Positions 5,565 to 13,805 of a DNA stretch of 64,000 nucleotides are shown here, piece by piece; position 1 is the stretch's first letter, and every line of letters begins with the position of its first letter. The notes beneath the pieces are model-generated. The model saw nothing but the letters and a program-made list of their open reading frames with translations, was not told the DNA's origin and made no database searches. The DNA is from a virus: IMG/VR virus record IMGVR_UViG_3300010885_018971, positions 26,796 to 90,795 of that record. The stretch is one strand, 5' to 3'. A program made the translations under genes and the position numbers.

Positions 5565-6332
5565 ATGGCTCGAACAGCAGCAAAACCAAAACCAATAGAT
5601 AATGTACAAGGTGAGCCAAGATTAAAAGCAGTAAACAATACGCTAAAAATAAGAATTGATGATTTAAAAACTTTTGATCCATTGACGGGAAATCAAAAGT
5701 TATTTTTTGATGCGTATAAACGTGGAGATTACTTTGTTGCACTACATGGTGTTGCTGGAACTGGTAAAACATTTTGTGCTTTGTATAAAGCCATTGAAGA
5801 AGTATTGGAGAAATCAAATCCATTCAACAAGATTATCGTAGTTCGATCTGCGGTTCAATCTCGTGAGATCGGTCATCTTCCAGGTGATGTAAATGAGAAG
5901 ATGGAAATTTATGAACAACCATATCGTCAAATCTGTCAGACACTGTTTGATCGTAAAGACGCCTGGGATAGATTAGAAGAACAAGGTCATATTACTTTTA
6001 TTTCTACATCATTCATTCGTGGTATGTCCTTTGACGATGCTATCATTATTGTTGATGAGATGCAGAATTTGACTTATGAGGAGATTGATACCGTTATGAC
6101 TCGTGTCGGTTATCGATCAAAGATTATTTGGTGTGGTGATTATCGCCAGACTGACTTGAATAAAAGAAAGAACGATGTTACTGGAATTTTAAAATTCTTT
6201 GACATTGCTCAACACATGAGCGCATTCACTCGTATTGAGTTTACTGTTGATGATATTGTTAGATCATCTCTTGTGAAAGATTATATCTTGGCAAAACTCA
6301 GATATGAAGACTTCGAGGATAAAAAGAAATGA
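5565..6332 (+). CDS. phoH: PhoH-like P-loop ATPase (255 aa)
   Basis: The Walker A motif GVAGTGKT is at residues 62-69 and the Walker B IIIVDEMQN has D164 and E165. QSREIGHLPGDVNEKM and the SFIRGMSFDDAI block are characteristic of PhoH-family ATPases. Phage PhoH is nearly universal in marine T4-like phages; its role is unsettled, with RNA metabolism suggested. The length is typical of the single-domain form. It overlaps the endolysin gene by four bases. Confidence 0.9.
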   Translation: MARTAAKPKPIDNVQGEPRLKAVNNTLKIRIDDLKTFDPLTGNQKLFFDAYKRGDYFVALHGVAGTGKTFCALYKAIEEVLEKSNPFNKIIVVRSAVQSREIGHLPGDVNEKMEIYEQPYRQICQTLFDRKDAWDRLEEQGHITFISTSFIRGMSFDDAIIIVDEMQNLTYEEIDTVMTRVGYRSKIIWCGDYRQTDLNKRKNDVTGILKFFDIAQHMSAFTRIEFTVDDIVRSSLVKDYILAKLRYEDFEDKKK

Positions 6333-6949: not shown

Positions 6950-7603
6950 ATGAAAAACTTTATACACCATGAATTCGATAAACTCCAACGTGAAACCTCT
7001 CCCAATGGTAAAAGAGTTTACAAAACTCCGTCAGGTAGAGCCTATCCTAGCGTCACAACAGTTACAGGACTCCACTCAGCAAAATCAATCGCACAGTGGC
7101 GAGCAAGAGTCGGAGAAGCAGAAGCCAACAGAATCTCAGGTCGCGCAAGTGCACGTGGCACAAGAATCCACAGTCTCTGCGAATCATTCCTCCGCAATGA
7201 AAGATGTGAGCCTGATATCTTCGATAGAGAATTATTTGAAGGAATTTCACCCCACCTTGAAGAAATAGATAATATACATGCGCTTGAAGATCCTCTGTAC
7301 TCAGATCATCTTGAAGTTGCGGGAACTGTTGATTGTATTGCTGAGTTTAGAGGTAAGTTATCGGTTATAGATTTTAAGACTTCTAGTAAAGTAAAAACTC
7401 GTGATAATATTCACAACTACTTTATGCAAACATCTGCATATGCTGTTGCGTTTGAAGAAAGAACTGGTATTCCTGTTGGTAAACTTGTAATTATAATGGG
7501 GATAGATAATGAAGATCCGATAGTGTTTGTTGAGAAACGTGATGATTGGATTGATGGTTTTTGTAAGCTAAGATTAGACTACAAAAATAAATTTGCTTTG
7601 TAA
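6950..7603 (+). CDS. RecB-family PD-(D/E)XK exonuclease (217 aa)
   Basis: The expected core is complete: a histidine in the RGTRIHSLCE helix (H74), GTVDCI with D128, VIDFKTS with D141 and K143, and Q160-TSAY in the following helix. This matches RecB/Cas4-like nucleases without a helicase part. Such enzymes are common in aquatic T4-like phages and probably degrade or process DNA ends during recombination or host DNA breakdown. No FeS-cluster cysteines are seen. The gene starts immediately after the endolysin stop. Confidence 0.75.
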   Translation: MKNFIHHEFDKLQRETSPNGKRVYKTPSGRAYPSVTTVTGLHSAKSIAQWRARVGEAEANRISGRASARGTRIHSLCESFLRNERCEPDIFDRELFEGISPHLEEIDNIHALEDPLYSDHLEVAGTVDCIAEFRGKLSVIDFKTSSKVKTRDNIHNYFMQTSAYAVAFEERTGIPVGKLVIIMGIDNEDPIVFVEKRDDWIDGFCKLRLDYKNKFAL

Positions 7604-7621
7604 ATAAATAAGAGGTATAAT
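7593..7621 (+). promoter_or_regulatory. sigma70-like promoter upstream of the tmRNA
   Basis: TTGCTT (7593-7598), a 17-base spacer and TATAAT (7616-7621) continuing TATGTTATG. This matches the layout of the other promoters of this type. It is the only promoter-like signal between the nuclease gene and the tmRNA, so it probably drives the tmRNA precursor. AGAGG just before the -10 box could also act as a ribosome site for the ATG at 7623. Confidence 0.6.
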
Positions 7622-7622
7622 T

Positions 7623-7790
7623 ATGTTATGTGATAAAGTTGAGATTGGACCCAGTATTATTATTCTAGACAAAGAGGTGACGTTAAGTTCGTTGCCTGGA
7701 TGGGTAGAAGGTGATATGTTCAAATTGATTATTGGTGCAAATGGAAATGTTACATTTATCAAGGTTACCCAACCTGGAGGTGTAATGTAG
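7623..7790 (+). CDS. possible 55-aa protein ahead of the tmRNA
   Basis: The frame starts at ATG 7623, seven bases after AGAGG, and ends at TAG 7788-7790 where the tmRNA acceptor half begins. The translation looks like a small beta-rich protein (GDMFKLIIGANGNVTFIKVT). However, the promoter at 7593-7621 would start transcription after the ATG, so translation would need a longer transcript. It may be a real gene or the 5' leader of the tmRNA precursor. Family not recognised. Confidence 0.4.
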   Translation: MLCDKVEIGPSIIILDKEVTLSSLPGWVEGDMFKLIIGANGNVTFIKVTQPGGVM

Positions 7791-7844
7791 TATTGCTGTA
7801 TGAAATGATGTAAAAGGTGTTCTGGACGGGAGTTCGATTCTCCC

Positions 7845-7894
7845 CACCTCCACCAAAATTCATTATTGTGTAGTAGTGAGTTTTGGTGGGGGTG
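7845..7894 (+). other. tmRNA precursor hairpin containing the excised spacer
   Basis: Positions i and j with i+j=15739 pair from 7845/7894 to 7867/7872, giving 23 consecutive pairs (a few G-T wobbles) and a four-base loop GTGT. The first seven pairs are the mature acceptor stem. The rest joins the encoded CCA end to the 5' end of the coding half and would be removed by RNase processing to give two RNA pieces. Confidence 0.85.
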
Positions 7895-7971
7895 ACTAGG
7901 TTTCGACAGGGCAATAAGTAACTGAGTGGACAGCACGAGACAGATACTCGTAAAAAGTAAATAAAGTAAAC

Positions 7972-8004
7972 GCAAACGACTCACAGTTCGCATTGGCAGC
8001 CTAA
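7972..8004 (+). other. tmRNA tag peptide frame, ANDSQFALAA
   Basis: Codons GCA AAC GAC TCA CAG TTC GCA TTG GCA GCC TAA. Like known tags it begins AND and ends ALAA, the signal recognised by ClpXP and related proteases. The tag resembles beta- and gammaproteobacterial tags more than typical alphaproteobacterial ones. Confidence 0.92.
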
Positions 8005-8172
8005 ACGCTGACTAGGGTTTCGGTAGGTTTCCTCGTAACAGAATAACCTACCACTGTTAGTTAGTCTATGCTTGATGCCAGCAACCGATACCTTAGTATC
8101 TCGTACTGAACACATTGCGACGAATCTGACAAGTTGATAGTATTTTTTAAAACTTTTTCTAAGGAAATTCAA

Positions 8173-8355
8173 ATGAAAACATTGATCGCTACAATTTTGT
8201 CCGCATTCGCATTAACATCTTTCGCTGCTGACGCACCTAAACCTGCTCCAGCTGCACCTGCTGCTGCACCTTCTGCTCCAGCTGCACCAGCAGCTAAAAA
8301 AGTAGAAGAGAAGAAAGTGGAAGCTAAGAAAGAAGAAAAGAAAGCATCTAAGTAA
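8173..8355 (+). CDS. small secreted Ala/Pro/Lys-rich protein (60 aa)
   Basis: I start at ATG 8173, preceded by AAGGAAAT; an upstream in-frame ATG would extend into the tmRNA end. The N-terminus MKTLIATILSAFALTSFA is a signal peptide with probable cleavage before ADAPK. The mature part is an Ala/Pro segment followed by a Lys/Glu-rich tail and has no globular core. Comparable short secreted proteins occur in betaproteobacterial genomes, so transfer from the host is possible. It probably acts in the periplasm. Function unknown. Confidence 0.6.
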   Translation: MKTLIATILSAFALTSFAADAPKPAPAAPAAAPSAPAAPAAKKVEEKKVEAKKEEKKASK

Positions 8356-8871
8356 ATGAGATGTGCCGTACTCTGTAATGGACCAAGTCGTAGTCTTTAC
8401 GTACCATCTACAGAGTACGGATTTGTCATGGGTTGTAATATACCATGGACTACAGTTGATGCAACTATAGTTCTTGATGAAGAGGTAGTTAGGTTGTGGG
8501 CAAAGAAACCAGATCTAATTACAGTTCCAACATATTTTTCAGTTAAAGCATGGCAAGAAACTGATGCAATAAAGAAACGTGATTTCTTTAGACCATTTTT
8601 AGTTAAAACAATAACTCCAAAATATCCATATCATTCTAGTGGACATAATGCTGTTGAACAGGTTATTACCAAAGGTTATACGAACATAGATATATTTGGA
8701 TGTGATTCTTGGTTTAGTAAAGTAGGAAGATCTTATACAAGAACGCATATTAAAGAAGGTGGAATCGTTGATGGAGATATGAGACATATCGAAGGATGGC
8801 GCACCCGATGGAAAGAAATAATGGACAAACATTCAGAAGTAACATTAAATTTTATAGGGGAAACTAAATGA
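8356..8871 (+). CDS. conserved phage protein, possible Rossmann-like fold (171 aa)
   Basis: It begins directly after the preceding stop codon. MRCAVLCNGPSRS at the N-terminus, VMGCNIPW, an ILD-type strand and a later SSGHNAVEQVITKGYTNIDIFGCD suggest an alpha/beta nucleotide- or sugar-binding fold. This is reminiscent of DUF115/MptE-like or glycosyltransferase-associated proteins. I know related sequences as phage hypotheticals. It overlaps the next gene by ATGA and sits between two genes for small secreted proteins. Confidence 0.55.
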   Translation: MRCAVLCNGPSRSLYVPSTEYGFVMGCNIPWTTVDATIVLDEEVVRLWAKKPDLITVPTYFSVKAWQETDAIKKRDFFRPFLVKTITPKYPYHSSGHNAVEQVITKGYTNIDIFGCDSWFSKVGRSYTRTHIKEGGIVDGDMRHIEGWRTRWKEIMDKHSEVTLNFIGETK

Positions 8872-9056
8872 AACATTTACTAGCAATTATAGCAATGGCT
8901 GTTGCTTCTACTGCATTTGCAGCTGAGCCAGCGAAGAAAGAACCAGCGAAGAAAGTTGAGAAGTGCATTCCTAGCAAAGAAGTAGTTTGTCAGGATTCTT
9001 TGAAAGGCAAAGAGCGTCCTACACCAAAGAAGAAAAAAGAAGAAACTACTAAATAA
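8868..9056 (+). CDS. small secreted Lys-rich protein with two cysteines (62 aa)
   Basis: MKHLLAIIAMAVASTAFAAEP is a clear signal peptide, with likely cleavage after AFA. The mature peptide contains two cysteines (KCIPSKEVVCQD) that could form a disulfide in the periplasm, and a strongly basic tail. It resembles the protein encoded at 8173-8355 in its design of signal peptide plus charged low-complexity tail, although the two are not obviously homologous. It overlaps the upstream gene by ATGA. Function unknown. Confidence 0.6.
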   Translation: MKHLLAIIAMAVASTAFAAEPAKKEPAKKVEKCIPSKEVVCQDSLKGKERPTPKKKKEETTK

Positions 9057-9450: not shown

Positions 9451-9966
9451 ATGCGAGTATATTTAAAAATACTTCTAATAATTACAACGATGGTAGGTGC
9501 CACTGCATATGTGACATCCATACCTCAAGAACAAAAATTATTCAATGTCAGATATAAAGAACTAACATCTGATGTAAGAAAACAAATTGATTGTCTTGCA
9601 GATAACATTTACTTCGAAGCAGGACATGAACCAGAAGAAGGCAAAATTGCAGTTGCCTTGGTTACACTTAATAGAACGCAAGATCCTAGGTTTCCAAAAG
9701 AAATTTGCTCTGTAGTCAAACAGAAGGTAAACTTAGTGTGTCAGTTCTCTTGGATCTGTGAACCCATGAAAGCAATAAAACATAATGATGTATACAGAAA
9801 GTCTCAAGATGTGGCTTTGCATGTATATGCTAATTATGAAATGATTGATGACATTACAAATGGTGCACTTTACTACCATGCAGACTACGTGAATCCAGGA
9901 TGGAAGTTGAAAAAGACTAAAGTCATTGGCCGACATATTTTTTATAAAGAAGGCAGTAAAATCTAA
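9451..9966 (+). CDS. SleB/Hydrolase_2-type cell wall hydrolase (171 aa)
   Basis: An N-terminal hydrophobic segment (about residues 5-22) serves as a signal or signal anchor. It is followed by DCLADNIYFEAGHEPEEGKI, the hallmark of the SleB cell-wall hydrolase family, with the catalytic glutamate at E56. AVALVTLNRTQDPRFP and GALYYHADYVNPGW are further family blocks. Such enzymes act as lytic transglycosylase or amidase-like endolysins. The N-terminal segment would allow export by the host Sec system without a holin. It overlaps the ClpP-like gene at its stop codon. Confidence 0.75.
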   Translation: MRVYLKILLIITTMVGATAYVTSIPQEQKLFNVRYKELTSDVRKQIDCLADNIYFEAGHEPEEGKIAVALVTLNRTQDPRFPKEICSVVKQKVNLVCQFSWICEPMKAIKHNDVYRKSQDVALHVYANYEMIDDITNGALYYHADYVNPGWKLKKTKVIGRHIFYKEGSKI

Positions 9967-10526
9967 TGATGAACAAATTAAACCTCCAGCTGAATGAATC
10001 TTCTGATTCTAGGCATTCGTTTTTTCTATTGATGGAGGAAATTACTCTTGCTACATGTAAGCAAGCAGTTGAGTGGATATTCGAAGCCAACTTTGCTGAA
10101 GAAACACCTGACCGATTAAATATGGTCATAACTTCTCCAGGTGGTGATTTGAATGCCGCATTTGCTTTGGTTGATACCATGCGTGGATCTTCCATTCCAA
10201 TTCGAACAATTGGACTTGGACAGATTGCTTCAGCTGGACTTATGATTTTCATTGCTGGTGAAGCAGGACAGCGTATTCTTACACCGAATACTTCTATCTT
10301 GTCACATCAGTACTCATGGGGTGCTTTTGGTAAGGAGCATGAGTTGTTTGCACAAATTAAAGAATTTGACTTGACAACCAAACGTATGATTGCTCATTAC
10401 AAAAAATGCACTGGATTAAAAGAAGATCAGATTCGTGAATACTTATTGCCACCACAAGATGTTTGGCTGAGTGCTCAAGAAGCTAAAAAATTAGGACTAT
10501 GCGATGACGTTAAAGAACTTAAGTAA
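9966..10526 (+). CDS. ClpP-like serine protease (186 aa)
   Basis: TSPGGDLNAAFALVDTM and GLGQIASAGLMIFIAG match ClpP. The triad is present: S89 in the IASAG motif, H114 in LSHQYS, and D165 in QDVWLSAQEA. Length is close to host ClpP, although the N-terminal axial loops appear different. Phage ClpP-like proteases are common in aquatic T4-like phages and may act in prohead maturation or selective proteolysis. Here it lies under 2 kb from a tmRNA gene whose tag is a degradation signal for Clp proteases. ATG 9969 is an equally possible start. Confidence 0.8.
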   Translation: MMNKLNLQLNESSDSRHSFFLLMEEITLATCKQAVEWIFEANFAEETPDRLNMVITSPGGDLNAAFALVDTMRGSSIPIRTIGLGQIASAGLMIFIAGEAGQRILTPNTSILSHQYSWGAFGKEHELFAQIKEFDLTTKRMIAHYKKCTGLKEDQIREYLLPPQDVWLSAQEAKKLGLCDDVKELK

Positions 10527-11824: not shown

Positions 11825-12032
11825 AAATTCAAACGAATTTTCACTTCACATTGAACAGTTAGTCAAAGAGAAACGAATCAATCACATGGACGCTGTACTT
11901 GAATACTGTAAAGATAATTTCCTTGAACCAGGAGATGTTTCAAAACTTATCAATAAGTCTCTTAAGGATAAAATTGAGATGAACTTTCGTGAATTGAATT
12001 ACTTACCCAAACAGGCTCAATTGGATGTTTAA
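11817..12032 (+). CDS. 33: gp33-like late transcription coactivator (71 aa)
   Basis: The pattern of two helices with DAVLEYCKDNFLEPGDVSKLI and a C-terminal KDKIEMNFRELNYLP matches my recollection of the short gp33 proteins of cyanophage-like T4 phages. Its place directly before gene 59 and gene 32 reproduces T4 order. gp33 bridges the phage late sigma factor and the sliding clamp to host RNA polymerase at late promoters. The late-type boxes ahead of structural genes fit its presence. gp55 is not in the window. Confidence 0.65.
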   Translation: MFKNSNEFSLHIEQLVKEKRINHMDAVLEYCKDNFLEPGDVSKLINKSLKDKIEMNFRELNYLPKQAQLDV

Positions 12033-12646
12033 TGGACGGATTTAAGGCATATAAGTATTACATTGCAATTAAACTACACTTCACAAAAGATTCCTTTGAT
12101 GTTTTCAAAAATCGTGGAACAGTCAAAGGTACTCGTGAAGCATTTAACGCAAGAAACGATAGATACATGTTTGAGAAGTTAGCTCGTAAATACCCAGTCG
12201 ATAAAGATCTGATTCAGTTCTATGTTGCAAACTACGCTTATGGTAATGAAAATGTTATATATGCAATTGAAGAAGCTGACTCATACCTTATGGAATGGAA
12301 TAAACGTAAACAATCTATCACCAAGATCTTTGCAGATGATCTAAATAAGATCTTGATGGATGCATACAAACGCAAACTTAAAGAACCATCTATTTTAAAT
12401 TTTACTTTAAATCAATATCCAAGTATACTTAACCTATACCTTGGAAAACAAATTGGGATTGAAACTCTTAGGATCTTAGATGACGTAGCTACTTTAATTC
12501 AACCATGGAAAGAAAATGCTTCCATGACTCTGCTTTGGGAAAATGAAATACGCAGAGTTGAAAAAGCAAAAGGGTTTGTTAAATATGATAAAGAAAAAAC
12601 TGAAAATCTTTATCAAGAGTTCTTGAAAGAAATCAAAGAGTTGTAA
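12032..12646 (+). CDS. 59: gp59-like helicase loader (204 aa)
   Basis: It overlaps gp33 as TAATG. The N-terminal KAYKYYIAIKLHFTKDSFDVFKNRG is followed by RNDRYMFEKLARKY and a long helical C-terminus. Both correspond to T4 gp59, in which similar words (KLYLMIKQH, RRDKYFFQKLSEKY) occur. gp59 binds fork DNA and gp32 and loads the gp41 helicase. Length is close to the 217 residues of T4 gp59, and it sits between 33 and 32 as in T4. Confidence 0.8.
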   Translation: MDGFKAYKYYIAIKLHFTKDSFDVFKNRGTVKGTREAFNARNDRYMFEKLARKYPVDKDLIQFYVANYAYGNENVIYAIEEADSYLMEWNKRKQSITKIFADDLNKILMDAYKRKLKEPSILNFTLNQYPSILNLYLGKQIGIETLRILDDVATLIQPWKENASMTLLWENEIRRVEKAKGFVKYDKEKTENLYQEFLKEIKEL

Positions 12647-12890: not shown

Positions 12891-13805
12891 ATGGATATTC
12901 AAACACTCCGCAAAATGCGTTCTTCTGACTTCGGCAAAATCGCTGGAGAATTCGAGAAAATCGCAAATCCCCAAACCCAATCTAAGTCATATGCTGACGA
13001 TCGCTTCTGGAAACTTGAAGGCGACAAAGCAGGTAATGGTACAGCCACCATTCGTTTTCTACCACGTGTAGAAGGTGATGAGTTGCCATGGGTTCGTATC
13101 TTTTCTCATGGTTTCCAAGGACCAACTGGTAAGTGGTACATTGAGAACTCACTAACTACTCTTGGTGAGAATGATCCTGTTGGTGAATTGAACACCAAAC
13201 TTTGGAATTCAGGTTCTGACGCAAACAAGAAAATTGCTCAGGCTCAGAAACGTCGCCTATCTTTCATTGCCAATGTTTTGATCGTATCTGATCCAAAGCA
13301 TCCTGAGAATGAAGGTCAGGTTAAGTTGTTTAAGTTCGGTAAGAAAATCTTTGACAAGATCATGGATAAGGCTCGCCCAACTTATGAAGACGAGACACCT
13401 GTAAATGTGTTTGACTTGTGGGAAGGTGCTAACTTCAAACTGCGCATGCGCAAGAAAGATGGTTACACTAATTATGATGAGTCTTCATTCCAAGATCCTT
13501 CAGCTATCACTGAGGATGAAGAAAAGATGTTGGCTATTGTAAATGCTCAAACTAAATTGTCTGAGTTTACAGATCGCAAGAACTTTAAATCTTATGATGA
13601 GTTGAAGAAAAAACTTGAAGAAGTTCTTTCTGGTGATGCGTTCTCTTCAAAATCTGCTGCTGAGATTGCTGAAGAAGAAGATCGTCCAGTGGCTGCTGCA
13701 CCACAGATTAAATCTGTTCCAGCACCAAAGTCAAAGGAAGTCTCTTTGACTGATGACGATGAAGACGTAATGTCTTACTTTAAGAAAATCGCTCAAGAAA
13801 ATTGA
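12891..13805 (+). CDS. 32: gp32 single-stranded DNA-binding protein (304 aa)
   Basis: FLPRVEGDELPWVRIFSHGF, KWYIENSLTT and NVLIVSDPKHPENEGQVKLF align with the OB-fold core of T4 gp32. The WEGANFKLRMRKKDGYTNYDESSF block follows, and the acidic C-terminal tail (TDDDEDVMSYFKK) is the protein-interaction tail. The T4 zinc ligands C77, C87 and C90 are replaced; no cysteine is visible in the protein, and H73 remains. Cyanophage gp32 is similarly non-zinc, to my knowledge. It coats ssDNA in replication, recombination and repair. It is followed by a strong bidirectional terminator. Confidence 0.92.
   Translation: MDIQTLRKMRSSDFGKIAGEFEKIANPQTQSKSYADDRFWKLEGDKAGNGTATIRFLPRVEGDELPWVRIFSHGFQGPTGKWYIENSLTTLGENDPVGELNTKLWNSGSDANKKIAQAQKRRLSFIANVLIVSDPKHPENEGQVKLFKFGKKIFDKIMDKARPTYEDETPVNVFDLWEGANFKLRMRKKDGYTNYDESSFQDPSAITEDEEKMLAIVNAQTKLSEFTDRKNFKSYDELKKKLEEVLSGDAFSSKSAAEIAEEEDRPVAAAPQIKSVPAPKSKEVSLTDDDEDVMSYFKKIAQEN

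Follow-up and report, generated by a model that had tools for sequence, protein, structure and literature searches.

A permuted two-piece tmRNA gene of the betaproteobacterial type in an uncultured lineage of T4-like phages

Ribosomes that have become stuck are released by tmRNA, an RNA that also marks unfinished proteins for destruction. A stretch of viral DNA of 64,000 nucleotides (hereafter the window), part of a 90,795-base IMG/VR virus record, holds a candidate tmRNA gene in which the acceptor half lies before the coding half. This locus raises the question of whether such a permuted gene is an established part of the phage genome and, if so, which role it could serve during infection.

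Structure and tag of the tmRNA gene

A single RNA gene is called in the window by ARAGORN, a permuted tmRNA at 7763-8095 (+) with the tag ANDSQFALAA. Two Rfam models match the same region above their gathering cut-offs: beta_tmRNA (RF01850) at 7718-8063 with 136.9 bits (gathering 84, E 1.2e-41) and tmRNA_permuted (RF04321) at 7794-8004 with 129.4 bits (gathering 47). The original prediction had described a circularly permuted two-piece tmRNA and had named a covariance-model search as its check; these scores bear it out. When the alpha, beta and cyano models were compared at full model length, RF01850 was the best of its clan, which assigns the gene to the betaproteobacterial type. A degenerate permuted-tmRNA motif gave one match in the window and none in 100 shuffles.

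The order of the parts is that of a two-piece tmRNA, with the acceptor half followed by an intervening segment and then by the coding half. The acceptor half (7794..7855, +) was delimited by the RF04321 and RF01850 alignments and by covariation in 59 relatives, and its coordinates were verified. It comprises, all on the plus strand, the 5' side of the P2 helix (7794-7824), the T arm (7828-7844), the 3' acceptor strand CACCUCC (7845-7851), A73 (7852) and an encoded CCA (7853-7855). The intervening segment (7856..7887, +) spans 32 nt, holds no ORF and is predicted to be removed on maturation; this spacer is the shortest among 59 distinct relatives. The coding half (7888..8063, or to 8095 by ARAGORN; +) was identified by ARAGORN, Rfam and covariation. 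Its 5' acceptor strand GGGGGUG, with G1 at position 7888, contributes G3:U70, and the half further contains the D-loop analogue, the 3' side of P2, the PK1 stem (7936-7950, +), the tag and downstream structure. The tag frame found by ARAGORN, ANDSQFALAA*, reads from the resume codon GCA at 7972 to UAA (7972..8004, +). The positions first given for the T arm through CCA (7828-7855), for G1 and for the tag all proved exact. The same is true of the predicted 23-pair hairpin with a four-base loop: 23 uninterrupted pairs run inward from 7845/7894, and the 16 pairs that the intervening segment adds to the acceptor stem are capped by a GUGU loop. The fold of this region has z = -5.0, and 0/200 shuffles were equally stable.

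Across 59 distinct relatives every sequence pairs in the acceptor stem, T arm, P2a, P2b and P2d (100%), and double changes occur in each of these helices; slid controls for them were 3-92% paired. The mid-P2 segment P2c of the Rfam model was 27% paired in the 59 relatives, no better than when slid, and is unsupported here. The alanine identity elements G3:U70 and A73 were invariant (59/59). Within the tag, the resume codon and the stop were fixed in 56/56 relatives, codons 2, 3, 7, 8, 9 and 10 showed synonymous variation, positions 4-6 varied, and the end ALAA was kept in nearly all relatives. These patterns of substitution indicate that the tag and the stems are under selection.

A promoter-like site belonging to the gene itself had also been proposed. 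This part of the original prediction was not upheld, as the stretch 7500-8400 contains 3 sigma-70-like sites where 2.4 +/- 1.7 are expected, a number no higher than chance. No T4 late promoter (TATAAATA) was present near the tmRNA gene, and the count of this motif in the window was below chance. Two minus-strand ORFs, at 7683-7856 (...GRIELPSRTPF...) and 7765-7914 (...GGGENRTPVQ...), overlap the tmRNA antisense. Both frames are probably spurious and do not merit annotation as proteins.

The tmRNA locus in its phage lineage

Genes around the tmRNA are arranged in the order PhoH (5565-6332), GH19-type endolysin, exonuclease, 55-aa ORF, tmRNA, small secreted-type ORFs, SleB-type cell wall hydrolase, ClpP, gp59 and gp32. 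The upstream neighbour and locus marker is a PD-(D/E)XK exonuclease (6950..7603, +; phrog_298 233.7 bits; PF12705), which is separated from the tmRNA by the 55-aa ORF (7623..7790, +), a frame without family match. Downstream lie the ClpP-type serine protease (9966..10526, +; PF00574 106.3 bits) and, as the right-hand border of the slot, T4-type gp59 (12032-12646, +; PF08993) together with gp32 (12891-13805, +; PF08804). In 25/64 relatives only 17-57 nt separate the exonuclease stop codon from the first paired base of the tmRNA, a spacing that points to co-transcription of the tmRNA with the exonuclease. The short ORFs at 8173-8355 and 8868-9056 have signal-peptide-like starts followed by Ala/Pro/Lys-rich tails; the 171-aa protein between them had no PHROG or Pfam match. 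Elsewhere in the window, the first half of an ORF at 50419-51741 matches ferrochelatase-labelled phage families and its second half a 2OG-Fe(II) oxygenase.

T4 hallmarks within the window are gp59, gp32 and the baseplate wedge. The window's own partial contig does not include gp23, which was found at ~450-470 bits in 8/8 full-size relatives (160-171 kb). The gp23 of one of these is closest among isolates to those of P-TIM40 (64%) and Melnitz (63%). The window phage is a T4-like aquatic phage of a large uncultured lineage. These hallmark genes and the conservation of the locus in relatives agree with the claim that the tmRNA is encoded by a T4-like phage. Naming a host from the tmRNA type was rejected as unreliable, because the alpha-type tmRNA of Melnitz sits in a phage whose host belongs to another branch.

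Conservation was examined in metagenomic contigs. When 2.9 million viral contigs were scanned for the motif, with a spacer of 12-42 nt allowed, at least 45 loci were obtained, of which 44 were permuted tmRNAs by ARAGORN; the remaining locus scored 103.6 bits with RF04321 (L029). Since the pattern scans demand CCA and one fixed acceptor motif, their counts are lower bounds. One locus (L038) represents the same virus as the window on an independent contig, with 99.94% identity over 12 kb. Among the 80 closest exonuclease relatives in IMG/VR, the fetched stretch contained a same-strand permuted tmRNA in 64, mostly just downstream, and a one-piece tmRNA in none (0/80). A further 79 PhoH-linked loci, with shorter flanks, yielded 38 permuted tmRNAs. 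When at least 4.5 kb of downstream sequence was available, the tmRNA was not detected in 8/68 relatives. Each of the 8/8 full-size relatives carried exactly one permuted tmRNA. The relatives sharing the slot come from many samples. Judged by these contigs, the permuted tmRNA is a phage gene that this uncultured T4-like lineage has conserved as a regular part of its genome.

Bacterial permuted tmRNAs were compared as well. In the sampled bacterial order they exceeded the cut-off in 17/300 genomes, a minority there, and in 3 of those 17 ARAGORN reported a one-piece gene at the same place. Of the phage genes, 56/59 encode the CCA, as against 12/68 of the bacterial ones. A tree of 156 sequences from a short alignment separates the phage tmRNAs of the lineage from the bacterial ones sampled (support 0.82).

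Proposed function and alternative roles

Gene order, structure, covariation, selection on the tag and conservation at one locus are the observations on which a functional reading can be built. From them, the window gene is very probably a phage ssrA that is complete and functional and belongs to the permuted betaproteobacterial type. The tmRNA would be transcribed together with the upstream exonuclease operon, and in the precursor RNA the long hairpin would form. Cleavage 5' of G7888 would fall to host RNase P, and exposure of the CCA at 7855 to the host's 3' processing enzymes, so that 7856-7887 would be removed and two RNAs would result, joined by the acceptor stem and P2. G3:U70 would allow charging by the host alanyl-tRNA synthetase, a fit with the host enzyme being assumed. 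With host SmpB, again on the assumption of a fit, the tmRNA would enter ribosomes stalled on broken mRNAs, and such stalling should be common in infected cells. The tag (A)ANDSQFALAA would then be added to the nascent chain, and the tagged products would be degraded by ClpXP-type proteases, possibly with the phage's own ClpP. The expected benefit is a bigger supply of free ribosomes and amino acids in infection. Uses of phage tmRNA in infection have been suggested before (PMC9004378). Host SmpB must serve, because no SmpB was found in 8/8 full-size relatives; SspB was likewise not found in these 8.

A phage ClpP has been mentioned as a partner in this scheme. Its gene starts 1.9 kb after the tmRNA in the window and 1.06-3.4 kb downstream across relatives, and one ClpP is present in each of the 8 full-size relatives. 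The triad residues Ser, His and Asp align with those of a ClpP of solved structure, and the best-covered isolate matches are from Synechococcus phage BUCT-ZZ01 (55%) and Sinorhizobium phage Phosso (52%). Among loci with 4.5 kb or more of downstream sequence, ClpP was present in 55/60 that carry the tmRNA versus 1/8 without tmRNA, a linkage whose Fisher p of 6e-6 ignores relatedness and which is confounded by phylogeny. Sequence and linkage make the phage ClpP a possible partner in degrading tagged proteins.

The same linkage, together with the variable tag positions 4-6, could be read as a re-tagging device, in which the phage tag would direct proteins to the phage ClpP in place of host proteases and controlled degradation would take precedence over ribosome rescue. 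However, the tags end in the standard AND...ALAA manner, and ssrA tag ends of this type are already recognised by host ClpXP. Unlike the window, Melnitz gave no ClpP match when 61 kb around its tmRNA were checked, and the phylogenetic confounding also weighs against this reading, which is considered improbable.

By analogy with mycobacteriophage DS6A, the RNA might alternatively interfere with host trans-translation, as a decoy or an inhibitor that titrates SmpB. The DS6A tmRNA consists of the tRNA-like domain only (PMC4131195), and phage RNA of that kind has been reported to inhibit tmRNA (PMC4131195; PMC11915505). The phages bring no SmpB, and a phage tmRNA must therefore compete for this protein with the tmRNA of the host. 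A decoy would nevertheless need neither a full-length tag, nor an ALAA end in nearly all relatives, nor synonymous conservation; because the tag appears to be under selection, a decoy role is quite unlikely. A captured or fragmentary host ssrA without phage function (an attachment-site remnant, a transduced piece or an assembly chimera) is the least credible and highly improbable, for although host ssrA is a phage integration site and ssrA fragments are known in prophages (PMC9004378), the window gene is complete by Rfam, an independent contig is nearly identical, the phage sequences stand apart from the sampled bacterial ones, the stems and tag seem to be under selection, and synteny in 64/80 related contigs from many samples already largely refutes capture.

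If the gene is a functional phage ssrA, a ribosome-rescue RNA has been kept at one genomic address by a virus lineage, which would mean that stalled ribosomes matter in infection. The importance of stalled ribosomes is testable, because the cultured phage Melnitz has the same slot occupied.

Nested small genes and comparison with known tmRNAs

The bare hairpin of the window is one form of the intervening segment. The sampled bacterial permuted tmRNAs have spacers of 26-46 nt, a range that includes the window's 32 nt and partly reflects the limited gap allowed in the scan supplying most of them, and the spacers of phage relatives reach 180 nt. From three further scans came 51 distinct spacers with a length of 95 nt or more; 21 of them contain an ORF exceeding the length usually reached in shuffles (p < 0.05 each). 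The start codon lies 12-17 nt into the spacer in 26/27 listed ORFs, and an ATG in the 11-18 nt interval is found in 17/22 spacers of at least 130 nt versus 3/37 shorter ones. These nested ORFs have roughly 30-60 codons, start ~12-22 nt past A73 and end near or beyond G1. At the threshold used they form 17 sequence clusters, Melnitz included, and probably 16 families; the count is inexact, as two membrane-protein groups are linked by weak similarity, and L352 and L349 were kept as separate clusters though apparently homologous (44% identity). Loci with nested small genes include L348, L361, L370 (= L170), L365, L367, L366, L368, L324 and L326; more are L154, L176, L189, L144, L308 and others, and many unrelated kinds are represented. 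In PHROGs and Pfam, one nested protein matched phrog_4098, two weak matches were obtained for others, and otherwise nothing was found.

All 11 homologous pairs of nested ORFs had pN/pS of 0.07-0.50, and over seven pairs the differences by codon position were 77, 57 and 130 (p 9e-8). These ratios indicate that the nested small protein genes are under purifying selection. The annotated tmRNA of Melnitz (MZ577097 45984-46436; L388 11985-12437) also contains an unannotated ORF (MFKWLSKTRLVVITRDYF...) that starts in the intervening segment. The spacer part of the Melnitz-type ORF is covered by 18 IMG/VR loci, whose pN/pS of 0-0.6 indicates that purifying selection acts on it in related contigs as well. 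In this phage superfamily the intervening segment is very probably a slot that receives nested genes for small proteins, and the window phage is a member with a bare hairpin. In 11 folded examples the ribosome-binding region lay in the helix that prolongs the acceptor stem and was paired with a probability of 0.85-1.0. Because the ribosome-binding region is inside this helix, translation of the nested ORF and tmRNA processing may be mutually exclusive, and a single transcript could serve for a small protein or, alternatively, for a two-piece tmRNA. It is from these folds that we infer a shared-transcript switch. Spacers with a tRNA gene and a repetitive element have been mentioned, with no protein gene (PMC11915505), and no description of protein genes in tmRNA spacers was found in the open-access literature. 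If true, the nested genes would be the first protein genes in a tmRNA gene besides group I intron homing endonucleases, as far as found, and would raise the question of how translation and RNA processing share one transcript.

Among known systems, the permuted tmRNA of betaproteobacteria (RF01850; Rhodocyclaceae, Herbaspirillum) provides the best-scoring model and has the gene order of the window. Phage-encoded tmRNAs are likewise present in mycobacteriophages Bxz1, Wildcat and DS6A and in Bacillus phage G, all of which we take to have the ordinary one-piece order. Permuted tmRNA signals were also observed in other phages. Achromobacter phage JWDelta (Schitoviridae, non-T4; L111 1488-1872) has an unannotated permuted tmRNA with a long spacer (RF04321 95.8 bits). 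Maribacter phage Panino, of a Bacteroidota host, gave 62.2 bits with the permuted-tmRNA model (cut-off 47) amid many tRNA genes (L113 1443-1775); its ARAGORN tag is unusual.

Of 133 distinct phage tmRNAs, 53 have been described as two-piece, mostly from aquatic sources (PMC9004378), and 79 phage tmRNA sequences and three gene forms have been listed (PMC11915505). The original prediction knew of no permuted tmRNA in a T4-like phage; two such cases exist. In Synechococcus phage S-CAM3 the permuted gene (L112 2446-2760) is unannotated as tmRNA, its site being partly labelled as a hypothetical protein. It differs from that of the window in its cyano type (RF01851 127.2 bits), its tag and its place beside tRNA genes. 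The two-piece tmRNA of the T4-like Methylophilales myophage Melnitz was described in 2022 (PMC9004378). Like the window phage, Melnitz (MZ577097) is a T4-like phage with a permuted gene and a full tag ending in ALAA. Its gene order is PhoH, nuclease, tmRNA, gp33 and gp59, with small ORFs between, and because the flanking gene orders agree, the tmRNA slot is common to both phages. Cyanophage ACG-2014d has PhoH, 2OG oxygenase, exonuclease, gp33 and gp59, with no tmRNA annotated between. The Melnitz tmRNA is of the alpha type (RF01849 106.7 bits) as against the beta type of the window, its spacer exceeds 100 nt and carries the nested ORF, and, unlike in the window, a glutamine riboswitch lies on its 3' side. 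The window gene is not new as a phage gene type, because Melnitz (PMC9004378), the listed phage tmRNAs (PMC11915505) and S-CAM3 cover it. Permuted tmRNA in T4-like phages is already known, and the window gene adds a beta-type case.
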